Shown: piece by piece, positions 1,380 to 17,694 of the stretch
How positions within the stretch are numbered: position 1 is the stretch's first letter
Layout: every line of letters begins with the position of its first letter
DNA from: Acidobacteriota bacterium
GTDB taxonomy: Bacteria > Acidobacteriota > Vicinamibacteria > Vicinamibacterales > UBA823
Length of the DNA: 64,000 nt
Assembly: GCA_002730525.1 (NCBI GenBank)
Contig: PCAK01000033.1
Coordinates: 1 to 64,000, forward strand
Direction: 5' to 3'
Position numbers and translations under genes: made by a program
The notes under the pieces: model-generated
The model's input: only the letters and a program-made list of their open reading frames with translations
Database searches by the model: none
Told to the model about the DNA's origin: nothing

Positions 1380-4300
1380 CTATTGCTCGGGCTGCTCCTG
1401 CGAAAGCGAGCGGAAGTACTCCTCGATCAGATCGCGGAAGCCCGACGGCACTTCGTCGGAGCCCGCGAGGAAGAGCTGGTCGGCCTCGTCGCCCTCGATC
1501 TCGCGCCGCAGCCGATACTCGAACCGCTTCAGGTTCTCGTTGACGAACGTCTGCAGCCGGGCGATCTCGTCGGCGTCGGCGTAGACACGCTGGTCGTCGA
1601 GGTCACGCAGTGCCTGGATGACCGCGTCGAGGTCCTCGGCGCCGAAGCCCTGCTGCTCGAGGCGCTGGCGGAGCTGTTCGGCGTCCATCGCCCGCTCGCG
1701 ATACTCGCGGCTGAACTGCTGCGCCTGGTCGGCGCCGACATCCCAGTCGCCCGGCCGCGCGTCGCCCCAGCCGCCGCCGAAGTCCGGGCCGCCGGTGCGG
1801 TCACCGCCGCTGCCCAACTGGCCGTCGGCCCGCTGGCCGCCCTGGCCTTCCTGGCCACCCTGACCCTCTTGGCCACCCTGACCCTGCTGGTCTTCCTGGC
1901 CGCCTTGGCCCTCTTGACCTTGCTGGCCCTGTTGACCTTCACCCTGCTGGCCCTGCTGACCTTCCTGGCCGGGCTGGCCCTCACCCTGTCGCGCTTGCTC
2001 GCCCACCCGCTGTTCGAGCGACTGGACGCCGCGCATCAGGTCGCGCGCATCCTCGAGCGCCTCGGCCCACTGATCGGCCGGGTCCCGCCCGATGGCGGCC
2101 TGGGCCTCGGTGAGCGCCTGCCGGATCTCCTCGATGTCCGACCCGATCTGCTGCTCGAACGCTTCTGAATACTCCGGCGCGCGGCCGAGGATGACGCCCT
2201 TCGAGTAGCGGATCTTCTCCTTCAGCTTGTTCTTCCGGATCGAGTCGGCGCCCGCCTGCAGACGGCGTGAGGCCTCGCGCTCATCGCGCCTGAAATCGGC
2301 CGACGTGTTGTCGAGCTGTCGCTCGAGGTCGGCGATCTCCGCGGCCATCTGATCCTTCTGCTCCATCAGCGGGGCCACCTGGGTCCGGCGGACCTGCGGG
2401 TCGACGTCGAGTCGGGCGACCTGGCCGGTCAGGTCACGCTCGGCGTCGGCCAGGGCGTCGACCCGGTCGAGCGCCTCGGCGATGTCCCGCTCGAGCCGGC
2501 CCGACTGTTCCTGTTCGAGCCGGCGCTGCGCCTCGCGCAACTGCTCGAGGGCGGCACCGGCGTCGGTCATGCCCTGGCTGCCCGGGTTCGCGGCGGCGCG
2601 CCGCATCGCGTCGGCGGCTTCCTGCAGCTGCCGCGCCGTCTGCATCATGTCGGGATCGGATTCCTCGCGGGCCAGCCGCTCGAGGCGGCGGGCGGCTTCT
2701 TCCGTCTCGTCGGCGAGCGCGCGCTGACTGGCGCCGCCGCCCGACGAGGCCGTGGGCTGGCCGCTCGAGCGCAGCCGCTGCCGCTCGGCTTCCTGCTCCT
2801 GGCGACGTGCGAGTTCCTTCAGCCGCTCGAGGGTCTCGTCGAGCTGCGTGTCGGCCATCTGCTGCTGCGCGCGCTGCATCGTCTCGTACTGATTCTGCAG
2901 CTTGTCCAGTTCCAGTTCGAAGAGGTCGGCCAGATCCTCGGCGGTCGACTGCTGCCCCCCCCCGCCGCCGCCCCCGCCGCCCTGCTGGCCCATCGAGACG
3001 CGCACATCCTCGTAGGCCTCTTCGGCGCGCTGAAGCATCTGCAGCGCGTGCTGCTCGGGTGGCAGCGCGTCCTCGACGTTCTGGGTCTGCAGCGTTTCCT
3101 CGGCCGCTTGCATCGACTCGGCGGCCTGCGGCAGGATCTCGGAAATCTTGACGAACGCCGGGTCGACGTTCGCGACGCGGCTATTCAGCCGGCTGAGCAG
3201 GGTCTGCACCTGCTCGCGCAGCTTGCCTTGCGCCAGCGCCAGGAAGACGACGTTCTCGCGGAACTCGTCGTCGGTGTAGTCATCGCGATCGCGCACGATG
3301 TTGAACGTGGCCGAGATGATCTCGCGCTGCTGCTGCGACAGCGCGTTGGGCTCCTGAGCGCCGCCGCCGCCCCCGCCTCCGCCACCCTGCGACTCCTCGG
3401 GCATGAAGTTCTTGCCGAACGGGCGGATCTGGACGAAGTAGAGGTCGCTGGTACCCAGATTCCCGGCATCAGCGTCAGTCGCGCCCTCGGTGGAGTCGTT
3501 CGCCCGAGCGTAGTACGAGATGAAATCGCCGGGTTCCAGCTCGAATTCCTCGAGGAAGAATGTATGGCCGGCGGCGACGTTGTGCAGCGCGCTGTCCGGG
3601 TCGTCGAGCAGCGAGAGCACTTCCTCCTCGCCGCCGTTGACCGAATAGACCAGCTCGAGGCTGCGCACGCCGAAATCATCGTCGGCCTTCGCCTCGACGA
3701 AGATCTCTTCGACGGGCGACGCCGTCGTATCACGGCCCGGCTTGCCGAATCCGACGACGGGCGGTTGATCGTCGAGGACGTCGATCGTGTACTGCGCCGA
3801 CGCCGTGACCATCGTGCCGTTCGGATCCTCGAGGTCGATCCGGAAGAAGCCGTCCGCGTCGATCGTGAAGCTCGTCGTGAACGACCCGTCGGCCTCGCGG
3901 GCCAGCGACAGGACCGTTTCCTCGTCCATCACGAGCTGGCCGGCCGGCGTGCCCATCGTCGGCACCGCGCGCACCCGCACTTCCGTGCCGCGCAGGGCCG
4001 CGACGTCGCCGCCGTTCTCGATCGTGCGCGGCGGCAGCCCGGTGTAGGCGGGGAAGTGGTACTCCAGTTCGAGCCGGCCCACGAATGGCACGTCGACGAC
4101 CTCGAGGGTGTAGACGGGCGACCGGATGCCGGACGACTGCACGAAGTACTCGGTCGGCTCGGCGACGTCGAACAGCATGACCTCGTAGGCGTCACCGTCG
4201 AGGCTGGGCACCAGCGGCAGCGGTTCGAACGGGACGTTCGCGTCGGCGCGCGAGTACAACTCCACGTCCTCGGCCTGGAAGCCGTCGAGCTGGGCCGTCA

Positions 4301-4961
4301 CCACCTGATCGGCGCCGCGCGCGATCGTGGCGTCGCCCGGCGCGACGACGATCTTGTACGGGCTTGCTGCCTCGACACTGCTGGTCGGGAAGGCGAGCGC
4401 CGAGAGTCCGTGGCGCAGATAGCCCGGACCGAACAGGAACAGCGCCAGGGCCGCGGCCGCCAGGCCGGCCAGCACGACCGATGACCGCTGAAGGCTCTGC
4501 CGCTCCACGCCGCGGCCGGAGTCGACCGTGCGGCACTTCTCGACCGCCACCATGATCAGTTGCCGAATGAGCGCGGGCGACATGTCGGCGCGTTCGAGCG
4601 CGTTCGGCTTGCCGCTCTCTTCGAGCGCGCTGACGAGCGCCGCCTGCAGCGACGGCTCGTGCTCCTCGAGGTACAGCGCGACCCGTTCGTCGGTGACCCG
4701 GCGCGCCAGCGGCAGGACGAGCGACCAGATCAGCAGTCCGGTCAGTCCGACGTAGGTCAGCAACCGGAAGGCGATGATCGCCGGTGCGCTGAAGCGGAAA
4801 TACTCGAGGCCGTAGGCCGAGAGCAGGAAGGCGATGACGCCGGCCGTGACCATTATGGCCGAGCCGCGCAGCGCGATCTTCAGCCGCCAGCGGTTACGAA
4901 CCTGACGGATGACGCGGACGAGTTCTTCCCGGCTAGAACGGGGTTCGTGGTCGCTCAACAT
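1380..4961 (-). CDS. Large DUF4175-like membrane protein with coiled coils and Gly/Gln repeats
   Basis: 1193 residues. Membrane segments lie near residues 33-52, 60-86 and about 160-182, followed by a beta-rich region (about 190-500) with motifs such as YHFPAYTGLPPRTIENGG, typical of the DUF4175-like proteins found beside MoxR/VWA genes. Poly-Gly tracts occur near 525 and 660. Residues 550-980 are rich in Glu, Gln, Arg and Leu and look like long coiled coils. About 990-1047 is a collagen-like run of GQ, GQQ and GQE units. The C-terminal 140 residues are again charged and helical. The upstream partner is the BatA/VWA gene 89 bases away. A structural or scaffold role in the periplasm is inferred, not shown. 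Confidence 0.8.
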   Translation of the reverse strand: MLSDHEPRSSREELVRVIRQVRNRWRLKIALRGSAIMVTAGVIAFLLSAYGLEYFRFSAPAIIAFRLLTYVGLTGLLIWSLVLPLARRVTDERVALYLEEHEPSLQAALVSALEESGKPNALERADMSPALIRQLIMVAVEKCRTVDSGRGVERQSLQRSSVVLAGLAAAALALFLFGPGYLRHGLSALAFPTSSVEAASPYKIVVAPGDATIARGADQVVTAQLDGFQAEDVELYSRADANVPFEPLPLVPSLDGDAYEVMLFDVAEPTEYFVQSSGIRSPVYTLEVVDVPFVGRLELEYHFPAYTGLPPRTIENGGDVAALRGTEVRVRAVPTMGTPAGQLVMDEETVLSLAREADGSFTTSFTIDADGFFRIDLEDPNGTMVTASAQYTIDVLDDQPPVVGFGKPGRDTTASPVEEIFVEAKADDDFGVRSLELVYSVNGGEEEVLSLLDDPDSALHNVAAGHTFFLEEFELEPGDFISYYARANDSTEGATDADAGNLGTSDLYFVQIRPFGKNFMPEESQGGGGGGGGGAQEPNALSQQQREIISATFNIVRDRDDYTDDEFRENVVFLALAQGKLREQVQTLLSRLNSRVANVDPAFVKISEILPQAAESMQAAEETLQTQNVEDALPPEQHALQMLQRAEEAYEDVRVSMGQQGGGGGGGGGQQSTAEDLADLFELELDKLQNQYETMQRAQQQMADTQLDETLERLKELARRQEQEAERQRLRSSGQPTASSGGGASQRALADETEEAARRLERLAREESDPDMMQTARQLQEAADAMRRAAANPGSQGMTDAGAALEQLREAQRRLEQEQSGRLERDIAEALDRVDALADAERDLTGQVARLDVDPQVRRTQVAPLMEQKDQMAAEIADLERQLDNTSADFRRDEREASRRLQAGADSIRKNKLKEKIRYSKGVILGRAPEYSEAFEQQIGSDIEEIRQALTEAQAAIGRDPADQWAEALEDARDLMRGVQSLEQRVGEQARQGEGQPGQEGQQGQQGEGQQGQQGQEGQGGQEDQQGQGGQEGQGGQEGQGGQRADGQLGSGGDRTGGPDFGGGWGDARPGDWDVGADQAQQFSREYRERAMDAEQLRQRLEQQGFGAEDLDAVIQALRDLDDQRVYADADEIARLQTFVNENLKRFEYRLRREIEGDEADQLFLAGSDEVPSGFRDLIEEYFRSLSQEQPEQ

Positions 4962-5050: not shown

Positions 5051-7126
5051 TTACGTTCGTGCCACCCGCGGCATCAGATTCGACAGCACGGTTTCCGCGG
5101 CCAGTAGCAGCAGCGCCACGACCAGCAGATACCGCCAGAGTCCCTGCCGCCCCTCGGTCTCCTCGGGGCTCCGCTCGCGCGCGACCAGGTTGCCCGGCGC
5201 CCCGGCGCCGGCGCGGCCGGTGATCGCGCCCGCCAACTCCTCGGGGTCGAGCATCGTGAGGTCCGACTCGCTGCGGTCCGTGTTCACCGCGACGGCGAGC
5301 GGAACATCGACGTCCGCGCCCGGCGTGTGCATCTCGTAGAACCCCTGATCGGCCAGTTCGAACAGGACCGCGGCTTCGCGAACGCGGATCGGCAACCGGT
5401 CGCCGGTCGGCGAGACCGCCACCGGGTCGTCGCGCTCGGGCTCGAGCCGATATCCGCTCGACGCGTACAAACTGGCCACGTCGAGAATCTGCGCGGTCGT
5501 GTGCCAGTCGGTCGGGTCGACGTAGCCCGCCAGATGCTTCGCCAACTGATGCACGAACGGCAGGTAGACCGGCTTGAGTGCCAGGTCGTTCCAGTAGCTG
5601 TCGAGCGTGGAGGCCCAGGCGAGCACTCGTCCGCGGCCCAGGTCGTGACCGGCCAGCGCCACCTGTCCGTCGTCGAACCGCGCCAGCACCGACTCTGGGT
5701 CGGTGACGGTGAACGGGCGGTACTGGAAGAAGCGCGCCGACGACAGGTCGCCGCTCCGCGGCGCGTTGAACACGTCGAACACGGGGTGGCTGTAGTCGAC
5801 GTAGCCCAGGACCCGGCCGCGGCTGCCGATGCGGTCGACCGCCGTGGTGAACGATCCGGGCAGCAGCGCCGGCGCACCCGACGACCACCGCACCCGCTCG
5901 CCGAGGATAGCCAGCACGCCGCCGCCGTTCTCCACGAAGGCGGTCAGCGCGTCGCCCACGGCGCCGGCGGGCGGTGCCGTGTCGTTCAAGATGACGACCG
6001 ATCGACCCACGAGCGCATCCGCGGTGAGGTCGCTCACCGCCATCACCTCGGTCACGAAGCTCGGCGTGCTGCCGATCGCCAGCGCGCGCTCGAGATAGAG
6101 GCTCGAATCGGGGTTGGGCGTGTCCGCCTCGACGATCAGGACCGTTACGAGCTGGCCCGGCGACAGCGTGAAGTGAAAAGCGTTGTCTCGCAGGAGGAGG
6201 TCGTCGCCGATGCGCACTGTGCCGCGGCGCTGGTCCTCACCCACGATGAACGGTTCGAACGCGACCGTGGCCGTGCCGGTGGCCTCCACGTCGACCGAGC
6301 GCGTCGCGACCTCGCGTCCGTCGAGCTCGAGCGTGACCGGCACGCGCGTTGCGTTGCTCGTGCTCAGGTTCACGAGCCGGGCCGAGGCGGTGACCTGCTC
6401 ACCGGCCGAGAACGGCTCGCGCTCGAACGATACCGAGGCGACGCTGAGGTTCGAGGTGTCGGGTTCGGCCACCGAGATCGGTCTCAGCACGACGCCTTCC
6501 GCGAACGCGATCCCCTCGTTGCCGGCCCACCCGTTCTTCTGGAAATCCGAGATCAAGATCGCCTCGCGGTCGGCGACCTCCGAGACCTCGAGAATCCCCT
6601 CGGCCAGCTTCAACGCCGGGCCGAACCGCGTTACCTCGACGCCGACCTCCGCGCGGTCGATGGCCGATCGCACACTGGCGTGATCGATCGACGAGCGCGC
6701 GCCGGCCTCCGCATTCCGCGCGAAGAGGATGAGCGTCGCGCCGTCGTCCGGGCCGAGCGCGTCGATCTCACGAAGCGCCGCGGCCTGCGCCCGCGCCCAG
6801 CGATCGCCGTACCCCATGCTGTAGGACTGGTCGAGCAGCACGACGACCTCGCGGCCGCCACCCAGCGCGCCGGCCACGGCGGTGGCGCTCGTGAAGAACG
6901 GCCGGGCAAAGGCCAGGACGAGCAAGATGAACGCAGCGCACCGGAGCAGGAACAGCGGCCAGTTACGGATCTTCTGCCGCCGCATCGACCGGTACGGCAC
7001 CCGTTCGAGGAACATCAGCGATGGGAACTGGATGATCTGGTCGCGTTCCCGGTGAATGAGGTGGACCAGTACAGGCACCGCCAGCGCGGCGAGGCTGAGC
7101 AACAGCAAGGGGGCAAGAAAAGCCAT
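5051..7126 (-). CDS. BatA/VWA domain membrane protein
   Basis: 691 residues. The N-terminus is the BatA (aerotolerance regulator) module: a membrane helix at 3-25, VLVHLIHRERDQIIQFPSL, then a second helix at about 56-76. A von Willebrand A domain follows with the metal-binding DxSxS motif LLDQSYSM (D99, S101, S103). A middle segment (about 310-520) has GGGVLAILGERVRW, like the amidotransferase-fold region of related proteins. A C-terminal helix lies at about 664-684. It shares one base with the DUF58 stop codon (TGATG), so the two are probably translationally coupled. In known systems MoxR ATPases work with VWA proteins as chaperone or assembly pairs; the client here is unknown. Confidence 0.88.
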   Translation of the reverse strand: MAFLAPLLLLSLAALAVPVLVHLIHRERDQIIQFPSLMFLERVPYRSMRRQKIRNWPLFLLRCAAFILLVLAFARPFFTSATAVAGALGGGREVVVLLDQSYSMGYGDRWARAQAAALREIDALGPDDGATLILFARNAEAGARSSIDHASVRSAIDRAEVGVEVTRFGPALKLAEGILEVSEVADREAILISDFQKNGWAGNEGIAFAEGVVLRPISVAEPDTSNLSVASVSFEREPFSAGEQVTASARLVNLSTSNATRVPVTLELDGREVATRSVDVEATGTATVAFEPFIVGEDQRRGTVRIGDDLLLRDNAFHFTLSPGQLVTVLIVEADTPNPDSSLYLERALAIGSTPSFVTEVMAVSDLTADALVGRSVVILNDTAPPAGAVGDALTAFVENGGGVLAILGERVRWSSGAPALLPGSFTTAVDRIGSRGRVLGYVDYSHPVFDVFNAPRSGDLSSARFFQYRPFTVTDPESVLARFDDGQVALAGHDLGRGRVLAWASTLDSYWNDLALKPVYLPFVHQLAKHLAGYVDPTDWHTTAQILDVASLYASSGYRLEPERDDPVAVSPTGDRLPIRVREAAVLFELADQGFYEMHTPGADVDVPLAVAVNTDRSESDLTMLDPEELAGAITGRAGAGAPGNLVARERSPEETEGRQGLWRYLLVVALLLLAAETVLSNLMPRVART

Positions 7127-8043
7127 CAGCGGAGCCTGATCATTCGTTCACGCGCCGAGAGGAACTTGAACAGCCCGTAGTCGAGCGGCGTCGACGTGTT
7201 GAACACGGCGTAGTCGACCTGATACTCGGTGAACCGCTTTGCGAGCGTCGATGTGTGCTCTTCGATCAGCTGCTTGTACTGATCGCGGAGATTGTCGGGC
7301 ACGATCGGCATCCGCACGCCCGTCTCCAGGTCCTCGAAGCTCGACGCGGAGTCGTACGGAAACTCGAGCTCGGCCGGGTCGAGGATGTGGAAGACCATCA
7401 CGTCGTGGCCCTGCGCGCGGAACCGCTTCACCGCGTCGATGATGACGTCGGGCTCTTCGTAGAAGTCGGAGATGATCGCGAGGATGCCGCGCCGCTTGAA
7501 AAACTCGGTCATCCGGAAGAGTGGATCTCTCAGCTGGCCTGGTCGGCCGGCGACGGCGCGGTCGATCGTGTGCAAGACGACATCGAGATGCTTGGCCGAC
7601 GACGGCACCCGCTCGAGGATCTGACTGTCGAACGTGACGAGGCCGACGCGATCGCGCTGCCGGTTCGCGAAGTAGGCGAGAGAAGCCGCCAGATACTTCG
7701 CGTAGTCGAGCTTCGTCAGGCCGCCGCTCGAGAAGGCCATCGACTTCGACACGTCGAGGATCGCCGAGAAGTTCGCGTTCGAGTCGGCCTCGAACTCCTT
7801 GACGTAGTAGCGGTCGGTGCGGGCGTAGAGTTGCCAGTCGATCCGACGGATGTCGTCGCCGGGCATGTAGCCGCGGTGCTCGGCGAAGTCGACCGACACC
7901 CCGAGGTACGAGGCCTTGTGGATGCCGTTGATGAATCCGTCGACGATCGTCCGCGCCAGCAGCTCGAGATTGCCGATGCGCGCCAGCACCTTCGGATCGA
8001 CGAACGACGCGCCGGGCGTCAGCGGATGTTCGTGGCTCGACAC
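7126..8043 (-). CDS. DUF58 domain protein (MoxR partner)
   Basis: 305 residues, the usual length for the family. The diagnostic DUF58 motif is present as YMPGDDIRRIDWQLYARTD at 59-77. It is followed by a VWA-like ILDVSKSM (D97, S99, S101). No membrane helix is evident, so it probably sits on the cytoplasmic side. The gene starts 5 bases after the MoxR stop and its own stop overlaps the BatA start, giving the standard MoxR-DUF58-VWA order. Neighbour order and motif make the family call secure. The specific role, presumably linking the ATPase to the membrane VWA protein, is inferred. Confidence 0.92.
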   Translation of the reverse strand: MSSHEHPLTPGASFVDPKVLARIGNLELLARTIVDGFINGIHKASYLGVSVDFAEHRGYMPGDDIRRIDWQLYARTDRYYVKEFEADSNANFSAILDVSKSMAFSSGGLTKLDYAKYLAASLAYFANRQRDRVGLVTFDSQILERVPSSAKHLDVVLHTIDRAVAGRPGQLRDPLFRMTEFFKRRGILAIISDFYEEPDVIIDAVKRFRAQGHDVMVFHILDPAELEFPYDSASSFEDLETGVRMPIVPDNLRDQYKQLIEEHTSTLAKRFTEYQVDYAVFNTSTPLDYGLFKFLSARERMIRLR

Positions 8044-8048
8044 GTCGT

Positions 8049-9089
8049 CTACATCCCCGACGCCGGGACCGCCACCAGCTCCAGCAACTGGTCGACGATC
8101 TGGTCGGTGGTCACGCCTTCCGAGGTCGCGTGGAAGTTCGTCAGCACACGATGCCGCATGACCGGGTGGGCCAGGGCTCGGATGTCATCGAAGTTGACGT
8201 GGTACCGGCCCTCCGTGAGCGCGCGTGCCTTGCCGCCCAGGACCAGATACTGCGCCGCGCGGACGCTGGCGCCGAAGGCCACCCACTTCTTCACGAAGTC
8301 GGGCGCGTCGTCGTTCTTGCCTGAGCGGCTCGTGCGGACCAGGTCCAGGGCGTAGCGCATGACGGGTTCGGAAACTGGCACCTTGCGGACAAGTTCCTGG
8401 AACTGCACGAGATCCGCGCCGGTGACGGCGTGCGAGAACTGCGGATCTTGGATCGCCGTGGTCGTGCGAACGACTTCGAGCTCTTCCTCCACGGGCGGAT
8501 GCTCGATGATCGTGTGGAACATGAACCGGTCGAGTTGCGCCTCTGGCAGCGGATAGGTGCCCTCGAGTTCGATCGGGTTCTGGGTTGCGAAGACGAAGAA
8601 CGGCTCCTCGAGCTCGTAGGTGCGCCCCTGGATCGTGACCCGGTGCTCCTGCATCGCTTCGAGCAGCGCCGACTGCGTCTTGGGCGGCGTCCGGTTGATC
8701 TCGTCGGCCAGCAGGATGTTCGTGAAGACCGGGCCCGGCGAGAAGACCATCTTGCGGCCACCGGTCGCCGGATCGTCCTGGATGATGTCGGTGCCGGTGA
8801 TGTCTGACGGCATCAGGTCGGGTGTGAACTGGATCCGGTTGAACTTGAGGTCGAGGACCTGCGCCATCGTCCGGATGATGAGGGTCTTGGCGAGTCCCGG
8901 CACGCCGACGATGAGGCTGTTGCCGCCGACGAACAGCGTCAGCAGAATCTCGTGGATCACGTCGTCCTGGCCGACGATCTGTTTCTTGATCTCCGAGATG
9001 ATCTGCTGGCGGCCGGCCTTCATCCGGTCGGCAAGCGCCACATCATCGGGCGACTCGAGGTCTTGCCGTTGGTTGTCGAATGCGTCCAC
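8049..9089 (-). CDS. MoxR-family AAA+ ATPase
   Basis: 346 residues. Walker A is GVPGLAKT at 62-69, Walker B is ILLADE at 125-130, and the sensor 1 region reads FATQNPIELEGTYPLPEAQ at 167-185, all typical of MoxR. The C-terminal lid with ALTEGRYHVNFDDIRALAHPV is intact. MoxR proteins are chaperone-like ATPases that help assemble or mature partner complexes, usually with VWA proteins encoded alongside, as here. It leads the DUF58-BatA-DUF4175-DUF4159 run. The 83-base gap before it holds GC-rich hairpins, so transcription from the upstream genes may be attenuated here. Confidence 0.95.
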   Translation of the reverse strand: MDAFDNQRQDLESPDDVALADRMKAGRQQIISEIKKQIVGQDDVIHEILLTLFVGGNSLIVGVPGLAKTLIIRTMAQVLDLKFNRIQFTPDLMPSDITGTDIIQDDPATGGRKMVFSPGPVFTNILLADEINRTPPKTQSALLEAMQEHRVTIQGRTYELEEPFFVFATQNPIELEGTYPLPEAQLDRFMFHTIIEHPPVEEELEVVRTTTAIQDPQFSHAVTGADLVQFQELVRKVPVSEPVMRYALDLVRTSRSGKNDDAPDFVKKWVAFGASVRAAQYLVLGGKARALTEGRYHVNFDDIRALAHPVMRHRVLTNFHATSEGVTTDQIVDQLLELVAVPASGM

Positions 9090-9172: not shown

Positions 9173-10012
9173 TCAATGCGTCATCGAATAAATGATGTAG
9201 TTCACACCCAGCTTGTAGGCTTCGTTCGACAGCTCGATCGGCGTGAAGCCGGTGTCCGAGTACTCCCAGTACTCGCCGATGTCGTTGTTGTAGTTGGCGA
9301 TGAGCAGCAGCCGCTTCGTCGGGTCGTTGTCCTCGTAGATCCCGTGAAAGGTCGGCCGGCCGCCGCGCCCGTAGAACTGCACGAAGTCGAGAGTCTCGAT
9401 CTCGAAGAACGCATGGAAGATCGGGCTCGAGACGTCCAACTCGACCAGGCGCCCCTCGGGCAGCAGCCGCAGCATCTGCTCCTCGAAGTTGTACCAGTGG
9501 CCGCCGCGGAAGTCGTCGAAGATGAGGAACCCACCCTTCTCGACGTAGTGCCGGAGCGTCAGGACCTCCTCCTCGCTCATCGTCCAGAATCCCGGCTCCG
9601 ACATGTAGGCCAGCGGGTACTTGAACAGCTCGGGATCGCCCAGGCGCAGGATGTTGCCGCCGGTCGGCCCCAGGAACGGCGTGAGGCCGGTGATCTCGTC
9701 GAGGATCCTCATGAAGTTCCGCTCGGCGCGTGGGTAGTCGTGCGCCCAGGGCGGCAGCCCGCCGCCACGAAACCCGCCGCCCCCGAAGCCACCCAAACTT
9801 TCCCCCATGCCGTACTGCAGCCGTACGAACGTGAACTTGCCGTCGTACGGCGTGTTCGGCGCATCGAGCGAGACCGGCGGCTCGCGCCGTCGGCCGCGAC
9901 GGCGTTGCTCTTCCTCGCTGCCCAGCCCGGCACCGGTGGCGGCCGCGAGGGTCGTCACACCCGCCAAGACGGCGGCGGCGGCGACGGTGCGCCGGATCCC
10001 GCGGGTCGTCAT
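9173..10012 (-). CDS. DUF4159 domain protein, exported (copy 2 of 3)
   Basis: 279 residues. A hydrophobic N-terminal segment (about 8-30) suggests export. A basic stretch RRRGRRRE and a Gly-rich loop precede the DUF4159 domain, which has YPRAERNFMRILDEITGL at 93-110, KGGFLIFDDFRGGHW at 159-173, SSPIFHAFFEIETLDFVQ, LLLIANYNNDIGEYWE and the end GVNYIIYSMTH. The start codon overlaps the stop of the upstream caspase-fold gene (ATGA), pointing to co-translation. It differs from copy 1 mainly at the N-terminus. Function unknown; a non-enzymatic role is possible because no catalytic Cys is evident in the ThuA-like core. Confidence 0.88.
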   Translation of the reverse strand: MTTRGIRRTVAAAAVLAGVTTLAAATGAGLGSEEEQRRRGRRREPPVSLDAPNTPYDGKFTFVRLQYGMGESLGGFGGGGFRGGGLPPWAHDYPRAERNFMRILDEITGLTPFLGPTGGNILRLGDPELFKYPLAYMSEPGFWTMSEEEVLTLRHYVEKGGFLIFDDFRGGHWYNFEEQMLRLLPEGRLVELDVSSPIFHAFFEIETLDFVQFYGRGGRPTFHGIYEDNDPTKRLLLIANYNNDIGEYWEYSDTGFTPIELSNEAYKLGVNYIIYSMTH

Positions 10013-11208
10013 CGCTCGGGCATCTCGGCCTCGGCTTCGCGCACCTGACGGTTCTTGAGTGCCAGCTCGATGAGCAGCCGCTCGAGTTCCTGCTCGTACA
10101 CGTCTGTTTCCATGCCGTCCTTCAGCATCCGGTGCGCCTCGACACGCTCCTCGATCGCTCGGCGCTCGGCGTAGAGCGCCAGCAGCGCCGGGTCGTCCGT
10201 TTCCAGCTCGTTCGCGGCACGCACCGGACCCGCCGTGAAGAAGAGCGACTGGGCAACCCGTCCGTCAGCGCCGACCGCGACCGGATCGGGTTCGTCCGAT
10301 CCCTCGCCGTCGCCATTGTCGTCGAGCATCGCGTGCTCGGTCAGCAGCAGGCCATCCTGCTCGTAGACTCGCGCCACCTCGCGCCGCGCGTACTCGAAGG
10401 CTTCCAGCAGGGAGGTCCGTCCATCCTTGTTCGCGTCGGCCGCATCGTCGACGGTCGTGCTGGGGTCGTCGTCGTCGTCGGCTTCAGAGTCATTGGCCTC
10501 GGCGGCCTCCAGCGCGTCGACCGATCCGTCGGGCATCAGGATCGTCGCACCGACGCGCGCGCCCACCGGGGCTTCGGCAGGCGTCGCGTCCATCTCCTCG
10601 ACCGGCGCCGCCGCCGATGCGGGGCCGGCGATCGCGTCGACGAAGAAGCCGCCGAACTTCGTCTCGTTCCGTTCACGCGCCGTCTTGGTGGCGGTGACGA
10701 TCGTTCGGTTGGGGCCCGACAGGCCGGCGACGAACTCACCGCTGGCGCTGGCCGTGTTGACGAAGACGACGCGCTGCGCGCGGAGTTCGTCGAGCGCGAC
10801 CGCGAAGTCGCCCACGGTCGGATCGAGCCCGGGCACGTTGAACTGCGAGGTGCCGCCGGAGGACGAGCCGTGGCCGATGAGGACGATCAGCACGAGGTCG
10901 GCCGCCGCGGCGCGCTCGGCGACCGCGGTGATCGCCGTCTGGACGTTCTCCCACGTCGAGCGGGCCTGGATCCGTTCGGGATCGCGATCGGGGCGTTCGG
11001 CGAGGTAGACGACCTGGTCGGCCGAAATCCCGTGCCGCTCGATTGCGGCGTCGACGAGCCGGATGCTCCAGTCGTGGAACCGGTCGCGGTACTCCTCGGC
11101 CCCGCCGAGGCCCGAGACGACGATCAGGTGATGCTGCTGGGCTGACGCCGGCGCGGCGGCGAGGCTGGCGCACAGCAGACCGAAGACGATCGGCGCGCGC
11201 GTCTTCAT
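10009..11208 (-). CDS. Exported caspase-fold (peptidase C13-like) protein with Ser at the expected Cys position
   Basis: 399 residues from the ATG at 11208, chosen because it overlaps the upstream stop (ATGA) and opens directly into a signal peptide (MKTRAPIVFG..., ending ASAQ). The fold is suggested by LVLIVLIGHGSSSGG (His113), resembling the His motif of C13/caspase-like peptidases, and by VVFVNTASASGEFVAGL at 147-163, where relatives carry the nucleophile Cys in a segment like AC-Y-A-G-G-F. Ser154 occupies that place. An acidic insert is followed by an EF-hand-like loop DANKDGRTSLLE (258-269), a second acidic loop near LDDNGDGEG, and a charged helical tail. It may be a pseudoprotease or a serine-dependent variant. 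Domain call moderate, activity uncertain. Confidence 0.7.
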   Translation of the reverse strand: MKTRAPIVFGLLCASLAAAPASAQQHHLIVVSGLGGAEEYRDRFHDWSIRLVDAAIERHGISADQVVYLAERPDRDPERIQARSTWENVQTAITAVAERAAAADLVLIVLIGHGSSSGGTSQFNVPGLDPTVGDFAVALDELRAQRVVFVNTASASGEFVAGLSGPNRTIVTATKTARERNETKFGGFFVDAIAGPASAAAPVEEMDATPAEAPVGARVGATILMPDGSVDALEAAEANDSEADDDDDPSTTVDDAADANKDGRTSLLEAFEYARREVARVYEQDGLLLTEHAMLDDNGDGEGSDEPDPVAVGADGRVAQSLFFTAGPVRAANELETDDPALLALYAERRAIEERVEAHRMLKDGMETDVYEQELERLLIELALKNRQVREAEAEMPER

Positions 11209-13496
11209 GCCAACCCCCTGACGCGGCGGTAGCCCCACTCGCCGCCGACCAGCGCGAGCAGCAGGAAGAGGAGCGCGGGCATGTCCCACAATTCCAGTTC
11301 CTCGACGACGGTGACGCCGGCGCCGGTATAGGCGATGTCTTCGGGCAGCGACGCCACGGTGTCGACGGTGTAGGACTGCCCCCCGGTCTCATCCGCGATC
11401 CGGCGCAGCAGCGGCGCGCGCATCGCCGAGTCGAAGAACTCGTCGTCGCTGGCCGCCGCGAAGACGTAGGCCATGTCGCTGCCGATCAACTCGTCCTCGC
11501 TGGTCGCCTCGACGCGGATCTCGTAGAGCCCTTCTTCCCTCGGCGTGAACAGCCCTTCGTGCTCACCATCCCGCTCCGTGGTCCAGTCGAGTTCGACCTC
11601 GGTGAATCCGCCGGACGGTGAGGTCACCTCGGCATTGACCCGGCTGTTGTTCATCTCGAGGTAGGCGCCGTCGACCACCTCGGTCAGCAACTCGACCGGC
11701 TCGTTGGGTTCGACGCGGTCACGGCGGACACTGGCCACGACCTGGTCGGGCACGCCGTCGACCAGCCACCGCAGCAGCCGCCGCCAGAACAGTTCGTGGG
11801 TCAGGTCGTCGGGTTCGATGTCGGCGTGCATCTGCCACATCCAGGAGTCCTGAATCGGCAACGCCAAGGTCTTGCCCGCGCCGTAGCGCTGGAATGCGAG
11901 GACGATGCGCTCGTCCGACCCGCCGGCGCCGGTGCCGGTCAGCAGGGTCGTCGCGCCGGGTTTGATCTCAGAGATCGGGTTCAGACTCGAGACGGCGGGA
12001 AGGTTCTTCCACCGTTCGCCCGACTCCTCCTCGGTGTCGGCTACCTGCATCGCCGCGTGCGTCTCGCCGGCGCGGGTCGGCGAGACCATCAGCTCGGTGA
12101 ACATCGGTTTGCCGTCGACGAGCGTCGGCTCGCCCATGACGACCGGCAGGATGTCGGCGATCGGCGTGCCGGCGTAGCCACCCTCGGCGAAGGCGCTGCG
12201 GCCGCCGAGCATCAGGAACCCGCCGCCGCGCTGGTTCACGAAATCGGCGATCATCCGCAGCTGGTCGGGGGTGAAGTAATTCGCCTCGACGCTGCCGAGG
12301 ATCAGTCCGCGGTACTGGAACAGCTCTTCCCGGGTCTTCGGGAAGCCGCCGAGCAGGTCGTCCGCGTCGTCGACATCCAGCCGGAGATACTTGTTGTCGG
12401 CCGTCCGCTGCAGCACGACGACCTGCAGGTTTTCGTCGTCGGCGACGGCGCGCCGGATGAACTTCACCTCGAACCGCGGCTCGCCCTCGAAGTAGAGGAT
12501 CTTCTCGCGCCGGTCCTCGACGACGACCAGGACGTCGCGCACGTTGTTCTGCGTGACCATCTCATCTGGCTGGGGTGGGACGGAGAAGCGGAAGATGCGC
12601 GGTCCCGGCTCGGTCGCCGTGAATCGGACCCGCGCCGTGGCCGGTTCGCCGTTGGCCGGCAGCGTGACCGCTTCGGTGCTGACGATCCGGCCCTCGTCCT
12701 CGATCTGCAGGGTGATCGAATCGCCCGCGTACCCGACCTGGCCGATCACCACGTCGACGACCATCGAGGTGCCTTGCAGCACCGAACGCGGCGTCTCGAC
12801 GCGGCTCAGCTGGATGTCGCGGTCGAAGGCCTCGCGTCCGAGGCCGACCGTGTAGACCGGCACGCCGTCGGCGCCGAGGCCGCGCAGTGATTCGGTCAGC
12901 ACCGACTCGGAGTTGTCGGCGCCGTCGCTGATGACGACGAGGCCCGACAACGGCACGCCGGTCAACTCGTCGCGGGCCCGGTCGAGTGCCTGTCCGAGGT
13001 CGGTCCGCGACCCGGCGTAGCCCAGCTCGCCCAGGTCGGTCAGCCGTTCGGTGGCCGACGAGAATCTGAAGAATCTGAGCGCGAAGCGCTCGGCGAGCGC
13101 GGACCGGAGCACGCTCTCTTCGGTGCCGAAACTCGCATCGACGAAGGCGCGCCGCGGCTCGTCGTCGCGATCGGCGATCTCCATGCTGCGTGAGTCGTCG
13201 ATCAGGACGCCAAGAAAGTTCTGCTGCGGGACGATCGAACTCAGGACGAGCACCGGGCGGAACAGGCAGAAGACGACGACGGCGAGCGCGGCAATGCGCA
13301 GCGCCGCGAGGACACCGCGATCGAGCGGCGTGCTCTTGCCGCGAGCCTGGGCGTAGGTGGTGAGCGTGGCGGCCGCGCCGGCGCCGAGGACGGCGATGAG
13401 CAGGAGGTACGACCAGGGGGAGGCGAACACGAAGTCGCCCTGGTCGAAGACCAGCGGTCGGTACTTGAACAGCAGCTCGAACAACCGATCGAACAC
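11205..13496 (-). CDS. VWA and amidotransferase-like membrane protein
   Basis: 763 residues. Two N-terminal membrane helices (about 27-47 and 62-82) are followed by a VWA domain with LIDDSRSM (D100, S102, S104). A beta-sandwich region comes next, then an amidotransferase-like domain at about 325-545 with LYFEGEPRFEVKFIRRAV, GFLMLGGRSAFAEGGYAG and MFTELMVSPTRAGETHAA. Another beta region and a C-terminal helix (about 737-757) close the protein. This architecture is common in Acidobacteria, Planctomycetes and Bacteroidetes next to MoxR genes, often named putative glutamine amidotransferase although the activity is unproven. It overlaps the caspase-fold gene by 4 bases. Confidence 0.85.
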   Translation of the reverse strand: MFDRLFELLFKYRPLVFDQGDFVFASPWSYLLLIAVLGAGAAATLTTYAQARGKSTPLDRGVLAALRIAALAVVVFCLFRPVLVLSSIVPQQNFLGVLIDDSRSMEIADRDDEPRRAFVDASFGTEESVLRSALAERFALRFFRFSSATERLTDLGELGYAGSRTDLGQALDRARDELTGVPLSGLVVISDGADNSESVLTESLRGLGADGVPVYTVGLGREAFDRDIQLSRVETPRSVLQGTSMVVDVVIGQVGYAGDSITLQIEDEGRIVSTEAVTLPANGEPATARVRFTATEPGPRIFRFSVPPQPDEMVTQNNVRDVLVVVEDRREKILYFEGEPRFEVKFIRRAVADDENLQVVVLQRTADNKYLRLDVDDADDLLGGFPKTREELFQYRGLILGSVEANYFTPDQLRMIADFVNQRGGGFLMLGGRSAFAEGGYAGTPIADILPVVMGEPTLVDGKPMFTELMVSPTRAGETHAAMQVADTEEESGERWKNLPAVSSLNPISEIKPGATTLLTGTGAGGSDERIVLAFQRYGAGKTLALPIQDSWMWQMHADIEPDDLTHELFWRRLLRWLVDGVPDQVVASVRRDRVEPNEPVELLTEVVDGAYLEMNNSRVNAEVTSPSGGFTEVELDWTTERDGEHEGLFTPREEGLYEIRVEATSEDELIGSDMAYVFAAASDDEFFDSAMRAPLLRRIADETGGQSYTVDTVASLPEDIAYTGAGVTVVEELELWDMPALLFLLLALVGGEWGYRRVRGLA

Positions 13497-13569: not shown

Positions 13570-14502
13570 TCAATGCGTCATCGCGTAGACGATGTAATTC
13601 ACGCCCATCTGGAACGCGTAGGTCGAGAACTTCAGCGGGTAGTACGGGTTGTCGGCCCACTCCCAGGCATCGCCCAGGTCGGTGTTCCAGTTGATCATCA
13701 CCATCATCCGGCCATCCTCGTCGAAGATCGCGCGCGTCTCGGGCACGTAGCCGTCGCGTTCCCACGTCCGGCCGCCGTAGACGGCGTTGTTCACCGCCGG
13801 CACCTGCAGAACCTCGTTGATCTCATAGACGGTGTGGAAGACCGGATGGTCGACCGGCACGTCGACGATCGGATACTCGGGCAGGACGCGCCTGATCTCC
13901 ATCTCGAAGTTCTGCCACTCCCAGGTGCCCCAGAAGTCGTCGACGAGCAGGAAGCCCCCGGCGTCCAGGTAGGAGCGCAGGCCGGCCACTTCCTTCTCGC
14001 TCATCGCCATCGAACCGACTTCGAGCGCGTAGAGAAAGGGGAATCGCCGGAGGTTCGGGTCGTCGAGGCGGATCGCGTTCTCGCTCTCGTAGACGCCGAG
14101 CCGCGTGACGCGCTGCAGGATAGAGATGAACTGCAGGTCGGCCTTGGGATAGTCGGTGGCCCACCGCGAGCCCCAGCGCCGGCCCCGACCGTTGCCGCTA
14201 TAGATCGCGCGGGTGAAGTAGAACTCCCAGGGGCCGACCGGATGCTGCAGCGTCGCGTCGGCGCGCGTCCGCACCGGCTGCGCGCCCGCCGGCTGCGCGA
14301 TGCGGACGTCGACGTCGACCCGCTGGCCCTGGAGCAGCGCTTCACCGAGCCAGAGGCCCGTCGCGAGGATGCCGACGGCGAGTGCCACGCGGTGCCGGAT
14401 GAATGGCCGCAAAGGGAGGCTCCACCAAGAACTCGGGTATGTCGGCAGCGTACCACAGTCCCCAGGGGCATTTCGGCGCCGGATTCCGGTCGAGCGGGCC
14501 AT
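13570..14502 (-). CDS. DUF4159 domain protein, exported (copy 3 of 3)
   Basis: 310 residues from the ATG at 14502. A TTG at 14412 with GGTGGAG 8 bases upstream is an attractive alternative start that would remove 30 unlikely residues and leave a normal signal anchor (HRVALAVGILATGLWLGEAL). The DUF4159 domain has YPKADLQFISILQRVTRLGV, AGGFLLVDDFWGTWEWQNFE at 181-200, VDHPVFHTVYEINEVLQVP, MVMINWNTDLGDAWE and the end GVNYIVYAMTH. It is most like copy 1 in the core. It heads the densely packed part of the minus-strand block. Function unknown. Confidence 0.87.
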   Translation of the reverse strand: MARSTGIRRRNAPGDCGTLPTYPSSWWSLPLRPFIRHRVALAVGILATGLWLGEALLQGQRVDVDVRIAQPAGAQPVRTRADATLQHPVGPWEFYFTRAIYSGNGRGRRWGSRWATDYPKADLQFISILQRVTRLGVYESENAIRLDDPNLRRFPFLYALEVGSMAMSEKEVAGLRSYLDAGGFLLVDDFWGTWEWQNFEMEIRRVLPEYPIVDVPVDHPVFHTVYEINEVLQVPAVNNAVYGGRTWERDGYVPETRAIFDEDGRMMVMINWNTDLGDAWEWADNPYYPLKFSTYAFQMGVNYIVYAMTH

Positions 14503-14554: not shown

Positions 14555-15886
14555 TCAGACCCGAGGCAGTGCCCACGGCCCGCGATAGGTCGGCGTCAGG
14601 AACGCATTGGCCTCGGCGTCGTCCCGAAACCGCTGTCCGGCTTCGTCCCAGTGGACCTTCCGGTCCGTCCGGAACGCCACGTTGCCGAGATGCGCGTTGA
14701 CCGCGGCGAGGCTCCCGGTGTCGGCGTTGCAGCGCGGCTGCTGGCGAGTCTTCATGCACTCGAGAAAATTTTCCGTGTGCTGGTCGAGGCCGCCCTGGCC
14801 GGAGACGGCCCGATGCTCGGGCACCGGGTCCATCTTGTAGTACGGCTTGCCGTCCGCCGTGCCGGTTTCGGGGAAGACCTCCCATCGACCGCGATCGACG
14901 ACCAGCGTGCCCTCGTTGCCGATGAACGCGACGCCATGGTCGCGCTGGAAGGGGCCCAGGCCGATGCCGACGGCGTGCTCCCAGATCATCGAGAAGTCGT
15001 CGAACTCGTAGATCGCCTGGAGCGTGTCGGGCGTTTCCTCGGCATCGTCCGGATAGGCGAACTTGCCGCCGCTCGCCACGATCGAGTTGGGTGCTGTGGC
15101 CTGCATGCCGTACAGCACGATGTCGATGAGATGCACACCCCAGTCGGTCATCAGCCCGCCGGCGTAGTCCCAGAACCAGCGGAAGTTGAAATGGAACCGG
15201 TTCGGATTGAACCGGCGTTGCGGCGCCGGCCCCAGCCACATGTCGTAGTCGACGCCGTCCGGGGTCGGGCCGTCGGGCACCATCGGCACCTCCGGCATCC
15301 AGTTCATGTAGGCCCAGGCCCTAGCGGTGCGGATCCGTCCGAGTGCGCCCGACTGGAGAAACGCGATGGCGTCGGCCCAGTGCGGTCCGCTACGCTGCCA
15401 CTGGCCGACCTGCACGACCCGGTCGTAGCGCTCGGCAGCCGAGACCATCAGCCGGCACTCTTCAATTGAATTGGCGAGCGGCTTCTCGACGTAGACGTCC
15501 TTGCTGGCCTCGCACGCCATCACCATCTGCAGGCAATGCCAGTGGTCGGGCGTGCCGATCACGACCGCGTCGACATCGGGGTTCTCGAGGATGCGCCGGA
15601 AGTCGCCGTAGACTGGCGGCTTCGTGCCGGTCATCCGCTCGATGTCGCCGGCCCGCCGGGCGAGCACGCTTGCGTCGACGTCACAGAGCGCGACGCATTC
15701 GGCCTCAGGACGCTTCAACATCGACTGGATGTCGGAGAAGCCCATGCCGTTGCAGCCGATCACCCCGACTCCGATCCGGTCGGTCGGTGCCGACTGGGCC
15801 GCCCAGAGATCGGCGGTCGATAGGGTCGCCAGGCCGACGCCCGCGGCGGCGGAGTGCTCGAGGAAGCGACGTCGTGACTCGGCCAT
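14555..15886 (-). CDS. Tat-exported Gfo/Idh/MocA family oxidoreductase
   Basis: 443 residues. The N-terminus has a twin-arginine signal (SRRRFLEHSAAAGVGLATL). The nucleotide-binding part follows with IGVGVIGCNGMGFSDIQSM and CDVDASVLARRAGD, then VVIGTPDHWHCLQMVMAC and the catalytic-lysine motif YVEKPLANSIEEC. The substrate domain includes FNFRWFWDYAGGLMTDWGVH and a DQHTENFLECMKTR helix typical of the exported Acidobacteria/Planctomycetes branch. Such enzymes oxidise or epimerise sugars with NAD(P); the substrate cannot be read from sequence. It follows the GH3 gene by 20 bases, so a shared role in carbohydrate turnover is plausible. Confidence 0.92.
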   Translation of the reverse strand: MAESRRRFLEHSAAAGVGLATLSTADLWAAQSAPTDRIGVGVIGCNGMGFSDIQSMLKRPEAECVALCDVDASVLARRAGDIERMTGTKPPVYGDFRRILENPDVDAVVIGTPDHWHCLQMVMACEASKDVYVEKPLANSIEECRLMVSAAERYDRVVQVGQWQRSGPHWADAIAFLQSGALGRIRTARAWAYMNWMPEVPMVPDGPTPDGVDYDMWLGPAPQRRFNPNRFHFNFRWFWDYAGGLMTDWGVHLIDIVLYGMQATAPNSIVASGGKFAYPDDAEETPDTLQAIYEFDDFSMIWEHAVGIGLGPFQRDHGVAFIGNEGTLVVDRGRWEVFPETGTADGKPYYKMDPVPEHRAVSGQGGLDQHTENFLECMKTRQQPRCNADTGSLAAVNAHLGNVAFRTDRKVHWDEAGQRFRDDAEANAFLTPTYRGPWALPRV

Positions 15887-15906
15887 GACAGATCCTCCCG
15901 GGTCGA

Positions 15907-17694
15907 TCAGTCGCCGGGCAGCGTGACGGGTAGCGTGCCCGCCGCCTCGATTTCGCCCCTCATGAGTCGGGCGAACGCGTCGCCGTAGACGACCTGGTTG
16001 CCGTAGAAGCCGCCCTCGCCGTAGCCGACGACGAACGCCGCCGCGCCGCGAGCCTCACCCGCCAGGTACGGATTGCCGTACGACATGACGACCGTCCGGC
16101 CGGGCTTCGCGGCGATCAGTGCCCGGACGAGTTCGGCGTCTTCCGGCCGGAGCGGCCCGTGGTCGACGTAGACGGTCCGCGGGTGGAACAGCGAGACGAT
16201 GACGGTATCGGCCCGTCGCGCCGCCGCCACGGCCTCAGCGCGAACCGCCGGGTCGACGTTCGGGCGCACGGCGAAGGCCTGCTCGATCGGCAGCGACCCG
16301 GCGAGGTGCGCCGCCACGTCACGCGCCGCCTGGAGGTGCTCGGCTCTCTGGATCGACACGTGCACGACGCGGCCCAGTGCGTCGGCCGTCGTCGGGAAGA
16401 ACCCGTCGTTCTCGACGAGCGTGAGCGAGCGATCGGCGATGTCATGGACCAGCGCCGTGTGCTCGGCTGTACCAACGAGCCGGTCGATCCGGTCGGGGTC
16501 GACGAACCGGTTCCGATGCAGGTTCAGTCGCGCCTTCCAATAAAGGATGCGGCGGGCCGAGTCGTCGATCTGGGCGGTCGGGATTTCGCCCGCGTTGACC
16601 GCCTCGACGACGGCGCCGATCGTCTTGATCGCGTCGAGCGGTTTCAGGAGCGCGTCGTGGCCCGCCTGGATCGCCATAACGCCGACCTGCTCGGCGCCGA
16701 AGCGATCGACCACCTTGTCGTACCAGAGGTCGTCGGTCGTCAGCACGCCCTCGAAGCCGAGCTGATCGCGGACCCAGTCTGTCGAGAGCGCCGGTTCGAC
16801 ACTGGCCGGCAGTTCGGAGCCTTCGGTCACCGAGGGCACGCTGATGTGCTCGGTCATGATGAACGTGACCCCGGCGTCGATGGCGTGCTGGAACGCGAGG
16901 AAGTCGGTCTGTTCGACCTCGTCGGCCGACTTGTGATTCACCGTGAACTCGGTGCCGGGCACCAGTTCGACGTCGCCGCGGCCGGGGTAGTGCTTGGCCG
17001 TCGCGAGCATGCCGTTGTCCTGGTAGCCGCGGATGTAGGCCGAGGCCAAACGTCCGAGCAGATCGAGGTCGGGTCCGAACGAGCGGACGCCGAGGACCGG
17101 GTTGTTCGGCTGCGTCTGCACGTCGACGACGGGCGAGTACGTCAGGTGAATGCCGATCGCGCGGCCCTCGGTCGCTCCGACGCGGCCGACCTCGTAGGCC
17201 AGGTCCTCCGAGCCGATGGCGGAGAGCGCCATGTTCGCGGGAAACTCCGAGGCGCCGGCGAACTGCTGGCCCGGTCCGCCCTCGAAGTCGGCCGACATGA
17301 GCAGCGGCACGTCGGCCTCGGCCTGCAGCCGGTTCAGGAGATCGGCGGTGTCGTGCGGGGTGCCACCGTAGATGACGAACCCGCCGACGCCGTGGTCGCG
17401 GACGAGCGTGCGCCAGTACTGGAACATCGCGTCGTCGTCGGCGACGTACTCGCCACGCATCTGCTCGGTAATGAGCTGGCCAACCTTCTGCTCGAGCGTC
17501 AGCCGTGCGAGCGTCTCGTCGGCCCACGCCTCGGCTTCGTCGTGCGGCGCCGTCAGCGTCGGCGGGTCATCGGCGGTGGCCGAGCCGTTGTCTGGGGCCG
17601 AGCAGGCGGGCAGCGCGACGAGCGTGGCTAGCGTGAGCGGCGCGAGCCACGCCAGGCAGGATCGGGTTCCTGGGCGTCCGGACATCCGTGGCAT
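15907..17694 (-). CDS. Glycoside hydrolase family 3 lipoprotein
   Basis: 595 residues. The signal peptide ends in a lipobox (LVALPAC, Cys near residue 30), so the protein is likely lipid-anchored. The GH3 barrel has LLMSADFEGGPGQQFAG, the KHYPGRGDVELVPG loop and VLTTDDLWYD, whose Asp fits the GH3 nucleophile. The C-terminal GH3 sandwich domain runs from about 420 (ADTVIVSLFHPRT, TVVMSYGNPYLAG). NagZ-type enzymes carry a DSH general-acid dyad just after the KH-PG-GD motif. Here that position reads ELVPGTEF, so it is probably not a classical NagZ. Cluster with the Gfo/Idh oxidoreductase and RDD genes suggests a small operon. Confidence 0.88.
   Translation of the reverse strand: MPRMSGRPGTRSCLAWLAPLTLATLVALPACSAPDNGSATADDPPTLTAPHDEAEAWADETLARLTLEQKVGQLITEQMRGEYVADDDAMFQYWRTLVRDHGVGGFVIYGGTPHDTADLLNRLQAEADVPLLMSADFEGGPGQQFAGASEFPANMALSAIGSEDLAYEVGRVGATEGRAIGIHLTYSPVVDVQTQPNNPVLGVRSFGPDLDLLGRLASAYIRGYQDNGMLATAKHYPGRGDVELVPGTEFTVNHKSADEVEQTDFLAFQHAIDAGVTFIMTEHISVPSVTEGSELPASVEPALSTDWVRDQLGFEGVLTTDDLWYDKVVDRFGAEQVGVMAIQAGHDALLKPLDAIKTIGAVVEAVNAGEIPTAQIDDSARRILYWKARLNLHRNRFVDPDRIDRLVGTAEHTALVHDIADRSLTLVENDGFFPTTADALGRVVHVSIQRAEHLQAARDVAAHLAGSLPIEQAFAVRPNVDPAVRAEAVAAARRADTVIVSLFHPRTVYVDHGPLRPEDAELVRALIAAKPGRTVVMSYGNPYLAGEARGAAAFVVGYGEGGFYGNQVVYGDAFARLMRGEIEAAGTLPVTLPGD

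Follow-up and report, generated by a model that had tools for sequence, protein, structure and literature searches.

The C13ps gene and its operon

The 64,000-nucleotide stretch of DNA analysed here (the window) carries on its minus strand a run of genes in which a protein of 399 aa, predicted to be exported and called C13ps below, is encoded between a membrane VWA protein and a DUF4159 protein. The genes of the run are:

1380..4961, minus strand: DUF4175 membrane protein
5051..7126, minus strand: BatA-type membrane VWA protein
7126..8043, minus strand: DUF58 protein
8049..9089, minus strand: MoxR AAA+ ATPase
9173..10012, minus strand: DUF4159 protein b
10009..11208, minus strand: C13ps, putative exported pseudo-legumain of 399 aa, ATG start (reading frame and predicted fold)
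11205..13496, minus strand: VWA/GATase membrane protein, a Bat-type VWA protein with a GATase1-like domain set in (sequence and model)
13570..14502, minus strand: DUF4159 protein a

MoxR, DUF58 and VWA membrane genes stand here in one run, as is characteristic of Bat-type operons, and the same gene order is found at Acidobacteriota and Gemmatimonadota loci. The stop codon of the VWA/GATase gene overlaps the start codon of C13ps in an ATGA, and the C13ps stop overlaps the start of DUF4159 protein b in the same way. A GFO/IDH/MocA-type oxidoreductase gene and a gene for a 595-aa protein (14555-17694) precede the operon, and do so likewise in the close relatives L034 and L036.

In order to describe the family we used 180 distinct rows from four phyla, each scoring above 110 bits against the profile of a 56-row alignment (A1), with identical rows merged; L030, whose gene is broken by a frame change, contributes two of them. 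With the window excluded and four rows with fewer than 700 bases upstream left out, the VWA/GATase gene lies no more than 400 bases upstream of the C13ps domain in 163 of 175 testable rows. Of the 12 non-adjacent rows, a DUF4159 gene intervenes in five, one is a fragment of L030, and the remaining six lack any operon gene in the available stretch. The link to MoxR/VWA and DUF4159 genes made in the initial annotation is thus a tight one, as judged by these counts and the ATGA overlaps. Six Planctomycetota sequences (L233, L235, L242-L244 and L261) represent a distant form that lies behind a DUF4159 gene, not behind VWA/GATase, and whose residue at the site discussed below is Pro or Gly. The genome of the window also carries a second C13ps copy (L004, contig C21), 37% identical over residues 10-193, in another operon, which likewise contains genes for DUF58, BatA, DUF4175 and VWA/GATase.

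The predicted model of the VWA/GATase protein has a mean pLDDT of 90.6, and its domains match a Bat-type VWA domain (4jdu, Z 19.9; 3ibs, Z 19.4) and a GATase1-like domain (3rht, Z 23.3). The DxSxS MIDAS motif of the VWA domain is invariant in 35 of 35 rows. The putative nucleophile turn of the inserted domain reads LMLGGRSAF and has Cys in at most two of 35 rows; the GATase1-like domain seems to lack a nucleophile Cys, and the neighbouring DUF4159 proteins have no Cys past the N-terminal segment. Foldseek ranked subunits of the eukaryotic oligosaccharyltransferase highest (E 7.5e-9), with TM no higher than 0.37 in the first three rows; PMC7226087 offered nothing firm on this likeness, a second structure comparison favoured the GATase1-like and VWA folds, and we draw no conclusion from it. 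By our reading of its hydrophobic ends and charge pattern, the large part of the VWA/GATase protein would lie outside, in the compartment to which C13ps is predicted to be exported. The VWA domain of a Borrelia BatA-type protein is reported to face the periplasm (PMC5700661, in the portion available).

Predicted fold of C13ps and the position of Ser154

The features of C13ps that bear on its function are:

11140..11208, minus strand: signal peptide, about residues 1-23 (by sequence and hydropathy)
10870..10872, minus strand: His113, catalytic-His position (family alignment)
10747..10749, minus strand: Ser154, codon AGC, position of the catalytic Cys (alignments)
10741..10743, minus strand: Ser156 (family alignment and the CxSG motif of Cys-bearing relatives)
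10450..10629, minus strand: acidic linker of about 60 residues, about residues 194-253 (low model confidence)
10402..10437, minus strand: EF-hand-like loop, D258-E269 (sequence; ligand positions conserved)
10306..10323, minus strand: second Asp-rich loop, DDNGDG, residues 296-301 (sequence)
10024..10191, minus strand: C-terminal helical hairpin, about residues 340-395 (model and family rows)

His113 lies in a GHG motif (G112-H113-G114) and Ser154 in the segment NTASASGEF, residues 151-159 (N151-T-A-S154-A-S156-G157). The acidic linker is common to C13ps and its same-genus relative, which is 88-89% identical, and is mostly missing in the next relatives. The signal peptide agrees with the export proposed in the initial annotation.

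An AlphaFold2 model of C13ps built from A1 has a mean pLDDT of 87.4. Legumains rank first in a Foldseek search with this model (E 1.4e-7), and VIA-align superposes it on legumain with Z 22.4 and an rmsd of 2.4 over 205 residues, with metacaspase-4 about one Z behind (Z 21.3). The helical hairpin falls outside the region matched to legumain. These comparisons predict a clan CD (caspase/legumain-type) fold for C13ps, and the caspase fold named by the initial annotation stands as a prediction.

The sequence comparisons are less one-sided as to kinship with C13 or C14. C13ps scores 15.4 bits against PF01650 (C13), below the Pfam cut-off of 22.8; family members L054 and L060 and the Cys-bearing L232 score above it, and within A1 a match to PF01650 at E<=0.01 is found for 29 of 56 rows. 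C13ps has no match to PF00656 (C14) at E<=1, and the distant members L233 and L232, the latter with Cys, score 21.0 and 21.5 against a cut-off of 21.4. In the window's genome, neither C13 nor C14 of Pfam is matched at E<=0.001, NCBIfam gave no match for C13ps, and single-sequence searches of the PDB gave no meaningful match. When searched as a profile against the PDB, A1 matches metacaspase-4 best (E 9.8e-5, aligned only up to the His) and legumain at E 1.1. We therefore call C13ps legumain-like with reservation, as Pfam and structure favour legumain and the PDB sequence profiles metacaspase-4.

Alignment A2, made from 11 Cys-bearing relatives recovered in the phylum searches, has invariant His151, Cys201 and Gly204 and a nearly invariant Ser203. 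The profile-profile alignment of A1 with A2 extends over 238 columns (probability 99.9, E 5.1e-31) and, in our reading of the printed alignment, sets His113 opposite the His and Ser154 opposite the invariant Cys; the A2 rows were found with the A1 profile, and the alignment is a check of register, not an independent discovery. Against the PDB, A2 matches metacaspase-4 (E 5.8e-20), plant legumain (3.4e-13) and GPI transamidase (4.9e-12), and its Cys falls on the metacaspase active-site motif, whose Cys we take to be catalytic, in agreement with the C139A in the title of 6w8r. Among 20 weak relatives, nine have a letter at the Ser154 column and all nine have Cys.

The alignments of sequences confirm that Ser154 occupies the column of the catalytic Cys of clan CD peptidases, as the initial annotation had placed it; residue numbers and the range 10729-10770 agree. 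The observation is not due to chance, since relatives occur in 86 of 100 nearby genomes and the fold match is strong. The sole Cys of C13ps, Cys13, lies within the signal peptide, and the mature protein has none; the idea that a Cys elsewhere in the chain has taken over is thereby rejected. A laxer search gave six weak Verrucomicrobiota matches in frames of about 800-900 aa (L191-L196), which lack Cys at the site and have the His in five of six cases.

The EF-hand-like loop expected at residues 258-269 is present and reads D258-A-N-K-D-G-R-T-S-L-L-E269, with Asp or Asn at loop positions 1, 3 and 5 and Glu at 12. Across the family, among rows with a letter, D258 is kept in 175 of 176, Asp or Asn at 260 in 172 of 176, Asp, Asn or Ser at 262 in 174 of 177, and Glu or Asp at 269 in 179 of 179 (Glu in 173). 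This conserved DxD/NxD/N...E pattern is consistent with calcium binding by C13ps. The loop does not mark the Ser form, as Cys-bearing relatives carry it too; the SG motif and the loop are both common to these relatives and hence inherited.

Variation of the active site and history of the family

Matches at E<=1e-30 were found in 69 of 247 Acidobacteriota genomes, 77 of 150 in the Gemmatimonadota set, 32 of 294 in the Planctomycetota set (one of these, G365, belongs with the outgroup) and 5 of 194 in the Verrucomicrobiota set, giving 183 genomes over four phylum sets. The phylum searches scored the best candidates per genome, and extra copies may have been missed.

Site 154 is occupied in the 180 rows by Ser (136), Thr (14), Ala (9), Pro (8), Gly (6), Cys (4) or Asn (2), with one gap. 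Cys is absent from 175 of the 179 rows with a letter at this site, and 129 of 180 rows are free of Cys in all mature-part profile columns. Hence Ser154 is not a one-off mutation, the Cys being missing across nearly the whole sampled family. His113 is kept in C13ps, as the initial annotation states, and in 177 of 179 rows with a letter, and Ser156 in 173 of 179. The two exceptions at His113 are L081, which has Tyr in its place, and L185, which has Gln. When the 325 columns are ranked by information content, Asp258 is 5th, His113 7th and Ser156 14th, and site 154 is 73rd. The Ser codons at site 154 are of both kinds (AGY 92, TCN 41; four rows were unreadable). Within the window's own family-level group the site is Ser in the window and in L034, Ala in L035, and Thr in L036 and L008. 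Cys two residues before the nucleophile column occurs in 16 of the 21 Planctomycetota rows L062 and L158-L177, and the 180 rows contain 16 rows of this kind altogether.

A C-terminal hairpin was detected in 161 of 179 family rows. The 18 rows without it are three Cys members, their two Ser sisters, L183, the incomplete or broken L021 and L030, and ten further Cys-less Planctomycetota; absence of the hairpin is thus not tied to Cys. None was detected in nine outgroup-type Cys proteins, L183 included.

Four Planctomycetota members (L178, L179, L184 and L253) have both His and a Cys at the nucleophile column and lie behind the VWA/GATase gene. The four Cys rows among the 180 are L178, L179, L184 and L183; L253 was found later, outside the 180, and L183 is placed among the outgroup proteins by the tree and stands next to no operon gene. 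The motifs of the four members (SACGSD, SACCSD, GGMCGSD and GGMCASD) are of the form CxSD, not CxSG, and all four have a second Cys nine residues on, at a column where no other row of the 180 has Cys. The gene of L178, also listed as L232, scores above Pfam's cut-offs for C13 as well as for C14.

In a quick first tree long branches met, the Cys protein L246 was oddly placed and three changes between Cys and not-Cys were needed, and we relied on a careful tree of 48 rows. In this tree the family stands apart from three outgroup Cys proteins (100/98). The four Cys members make up a single clade (100/97), which has two Ser members as its sisters (97/89) and is nested among Cys-less members, so that two changes suffice. 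Joining the four with the outgroup was rejected (p-AU 0.007), in a test whose group was chosen after the first tree.

Alternative readings of the missing cysteine

The initial annotation had left room for a Ser-type variant, in which Ser154 (Thr in close relatives) would work with His113 as a hydrolase of the caspase fold. In favour of this, the His is kept as described above and 150 of 179 rows have Ser or Thr at the site. However, Ala, Pro, Gly or Asn is accepted in 25 of 179 rows, the closely related L035 (Ala) among them; 23 of these 25 have a VWA/GATase gene in the available stretch and only one has lost His113. Since these residues are also accepted at site 154, the site does not hold a nucleophile, and the Ser-type variant fails: the residue stays small, yet not as a nucleophile. 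We regard a working Ser-type hydrolase as very improbable, although members with Ser or Thr might formally retain some weak activity, Ser being the commonest residue (136 of 180). The near-invariant Ser156 might instead be the real nucleophile, which its presence in 173 of 179 rows would suit; the Cys-bearing relatives, however, have the same Ser (S203 in A2) two residues after their Cys, which makes it an inherited part of CxSG, and we consider this barely plausible. Decay of a gene without function would explain the lost catalytic residue and the frame change in L030, but the family persists in 183 genomes at E<=1e-30 and has kept other residues invariant, and this reading is next to negligible.

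The Planctomycetota Cys clade raises the question of whether the operon once had an active Cys peptidase whose Cys was lost many times, the four Cys members being the surviving active form. Their His and Cys behind the same VWA/GATase gene, and the passing of both the C13 and C14 cut-offs by one of them, speak for such a history. Against it, the four form a single nested clade beside Ser members, their grouping with outgroup Cys proteins is rejected by the test above, about seven losses would be needed by our reading of the tree as opposed to two changes, and their motif is CxSD with a second Cys nine residues on. On this evidence we judge it unlikely. A history in which Cys was lost once at the base of the family, the protein served as a binding subunit across four phyla, and one Planctomycetota clade then regained the nucleophile Cys and may again be an enzyme is itself a quite unlikely one in our estimation. 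The gain of Cys in a pair points to a disulfide no less than to renewed catalysis, and more plainly the clade may have acquired a new Cys154-Cys163 disulfide; the score of one of the four above the C13 and C14 cut-offs speaks for the other side.

C13ps as a putative binding subunit

We consider it reasonably probable that C13ps is an exported legumain-like pseudopeptidase, a putative binding component within an envelope machine of the Bat-like MoxR/VWA kind, and probably stabilised by calcium. We infer the binding function and the calcium from the sequence features and context described above, and gene order suggests the VWA/GATase protein as the partner. In such a model catalysis would have been lost early and C13ps kept as a peptide- or protein-binding subunit. 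The place of C13ps would be the periplasm, beside the two DUF4159 proteins and the VWA/GATase membrane protein, which has an intact metal-ion-dependent adhesion site (MIDAS) motif, while cytoplasmic MoxR and DUF58 would remodel the assembly using ATP. Ca2+ in the 258-269 loop would hold the C-terminal half of C13ps in shape, the C-terminal helical hairpin may act as a docking element, and the old active-site pocket may serve as the binding site for a peptide, a protein or the VWA/GATase partner. Against this reading stand the six rows without an operon gene, the four Cys members in the same neighbourhood, one of them passing the C13 and C14 cut-offs, and the best match of the sequence profiles to metacaspase-4, which leaves kinship with C13 or C14 two-sided.

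C13ps has in common with legumain and other C13 proteins the predicted fold, the position of the His, the S-G after the nucleophile site and export; unlike them it has no Cys at the site, carries an EF-hand-like loop and scores below the Pfam cut-off. Its hairpin of about 56 residues stands where legumain is described as having a larger C-terminal domain (PMC4357240, available part). The C14-like pseudo-orthocaspases are likewise clan CD folds without the His-Cys dyad that are conserved as groups; as far as the accessible text of PMC6426788 goes, those are typically Tyr-Ser and 90% come from Alphaproteobacteria and Cyanobacteria, with substitutions of one or both catalytic residues in 858 of 9,994 orthocaspases. 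The C13ps family, in contrast, keeps the His, has its Pfam affinity mainly with C13 and is tied to a VWA/MoxR operon. In the part available of a 2012 survey (PMC3501461), Ser is the commonest replacement of the Cys, and a single Gemmatimonadetes homologue with a dyad that is not intact is listed, which may or may not belong to the C13ps family. The pseudo-orthocaspase SyOC has been studied by knock-out (PMC7889975, seen in part).

Like the Bat (aerotolerance) operons, this one places MoxR, DUF58 and several VWA membrane proteins, the BatA type among them, next to one another; it adds VWA/GATase, two DUF4159 proteins, DUF4175 and the pseudo-legumain. The MoxR-vWA ternary conflict systems (VMAP etc.) also combine MoxR and VWA, sometimes with caspase-like domains, but there, in the sections of PMC7159879 that were available, the caspase-like domain is fused to VWA/VMAP, whereas C13ps is a separate, exported protein of a Bat-like operon. 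Our literature search, which covered few subscription papers, found among the matches listed no account of an operon-bound C13ps family and no occurrence of ‘peptidase C13’, and the literature searched held no mention of DUF4159. As far as this search tells, what is new is a legumain-like family, bound to an operon, that keeps the His and has lost the Cys almost entirely; bacterial pseudo-caspases as such are already in print.

We know of no settled function for Bat-like MoxR/VWA envelope machines or for DUF4159. A conserved pseudopeptidase gene that overlaps the gene of a VWA subunit suggests that the machine handles periplasmic peptides or proteins, and C13ps and VWA/GATase form a pair of proteins to study together. 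The family is also a large and well-sampled example of a protease fold that lost its enzyme function, a loss that may have been reversed in one clade.
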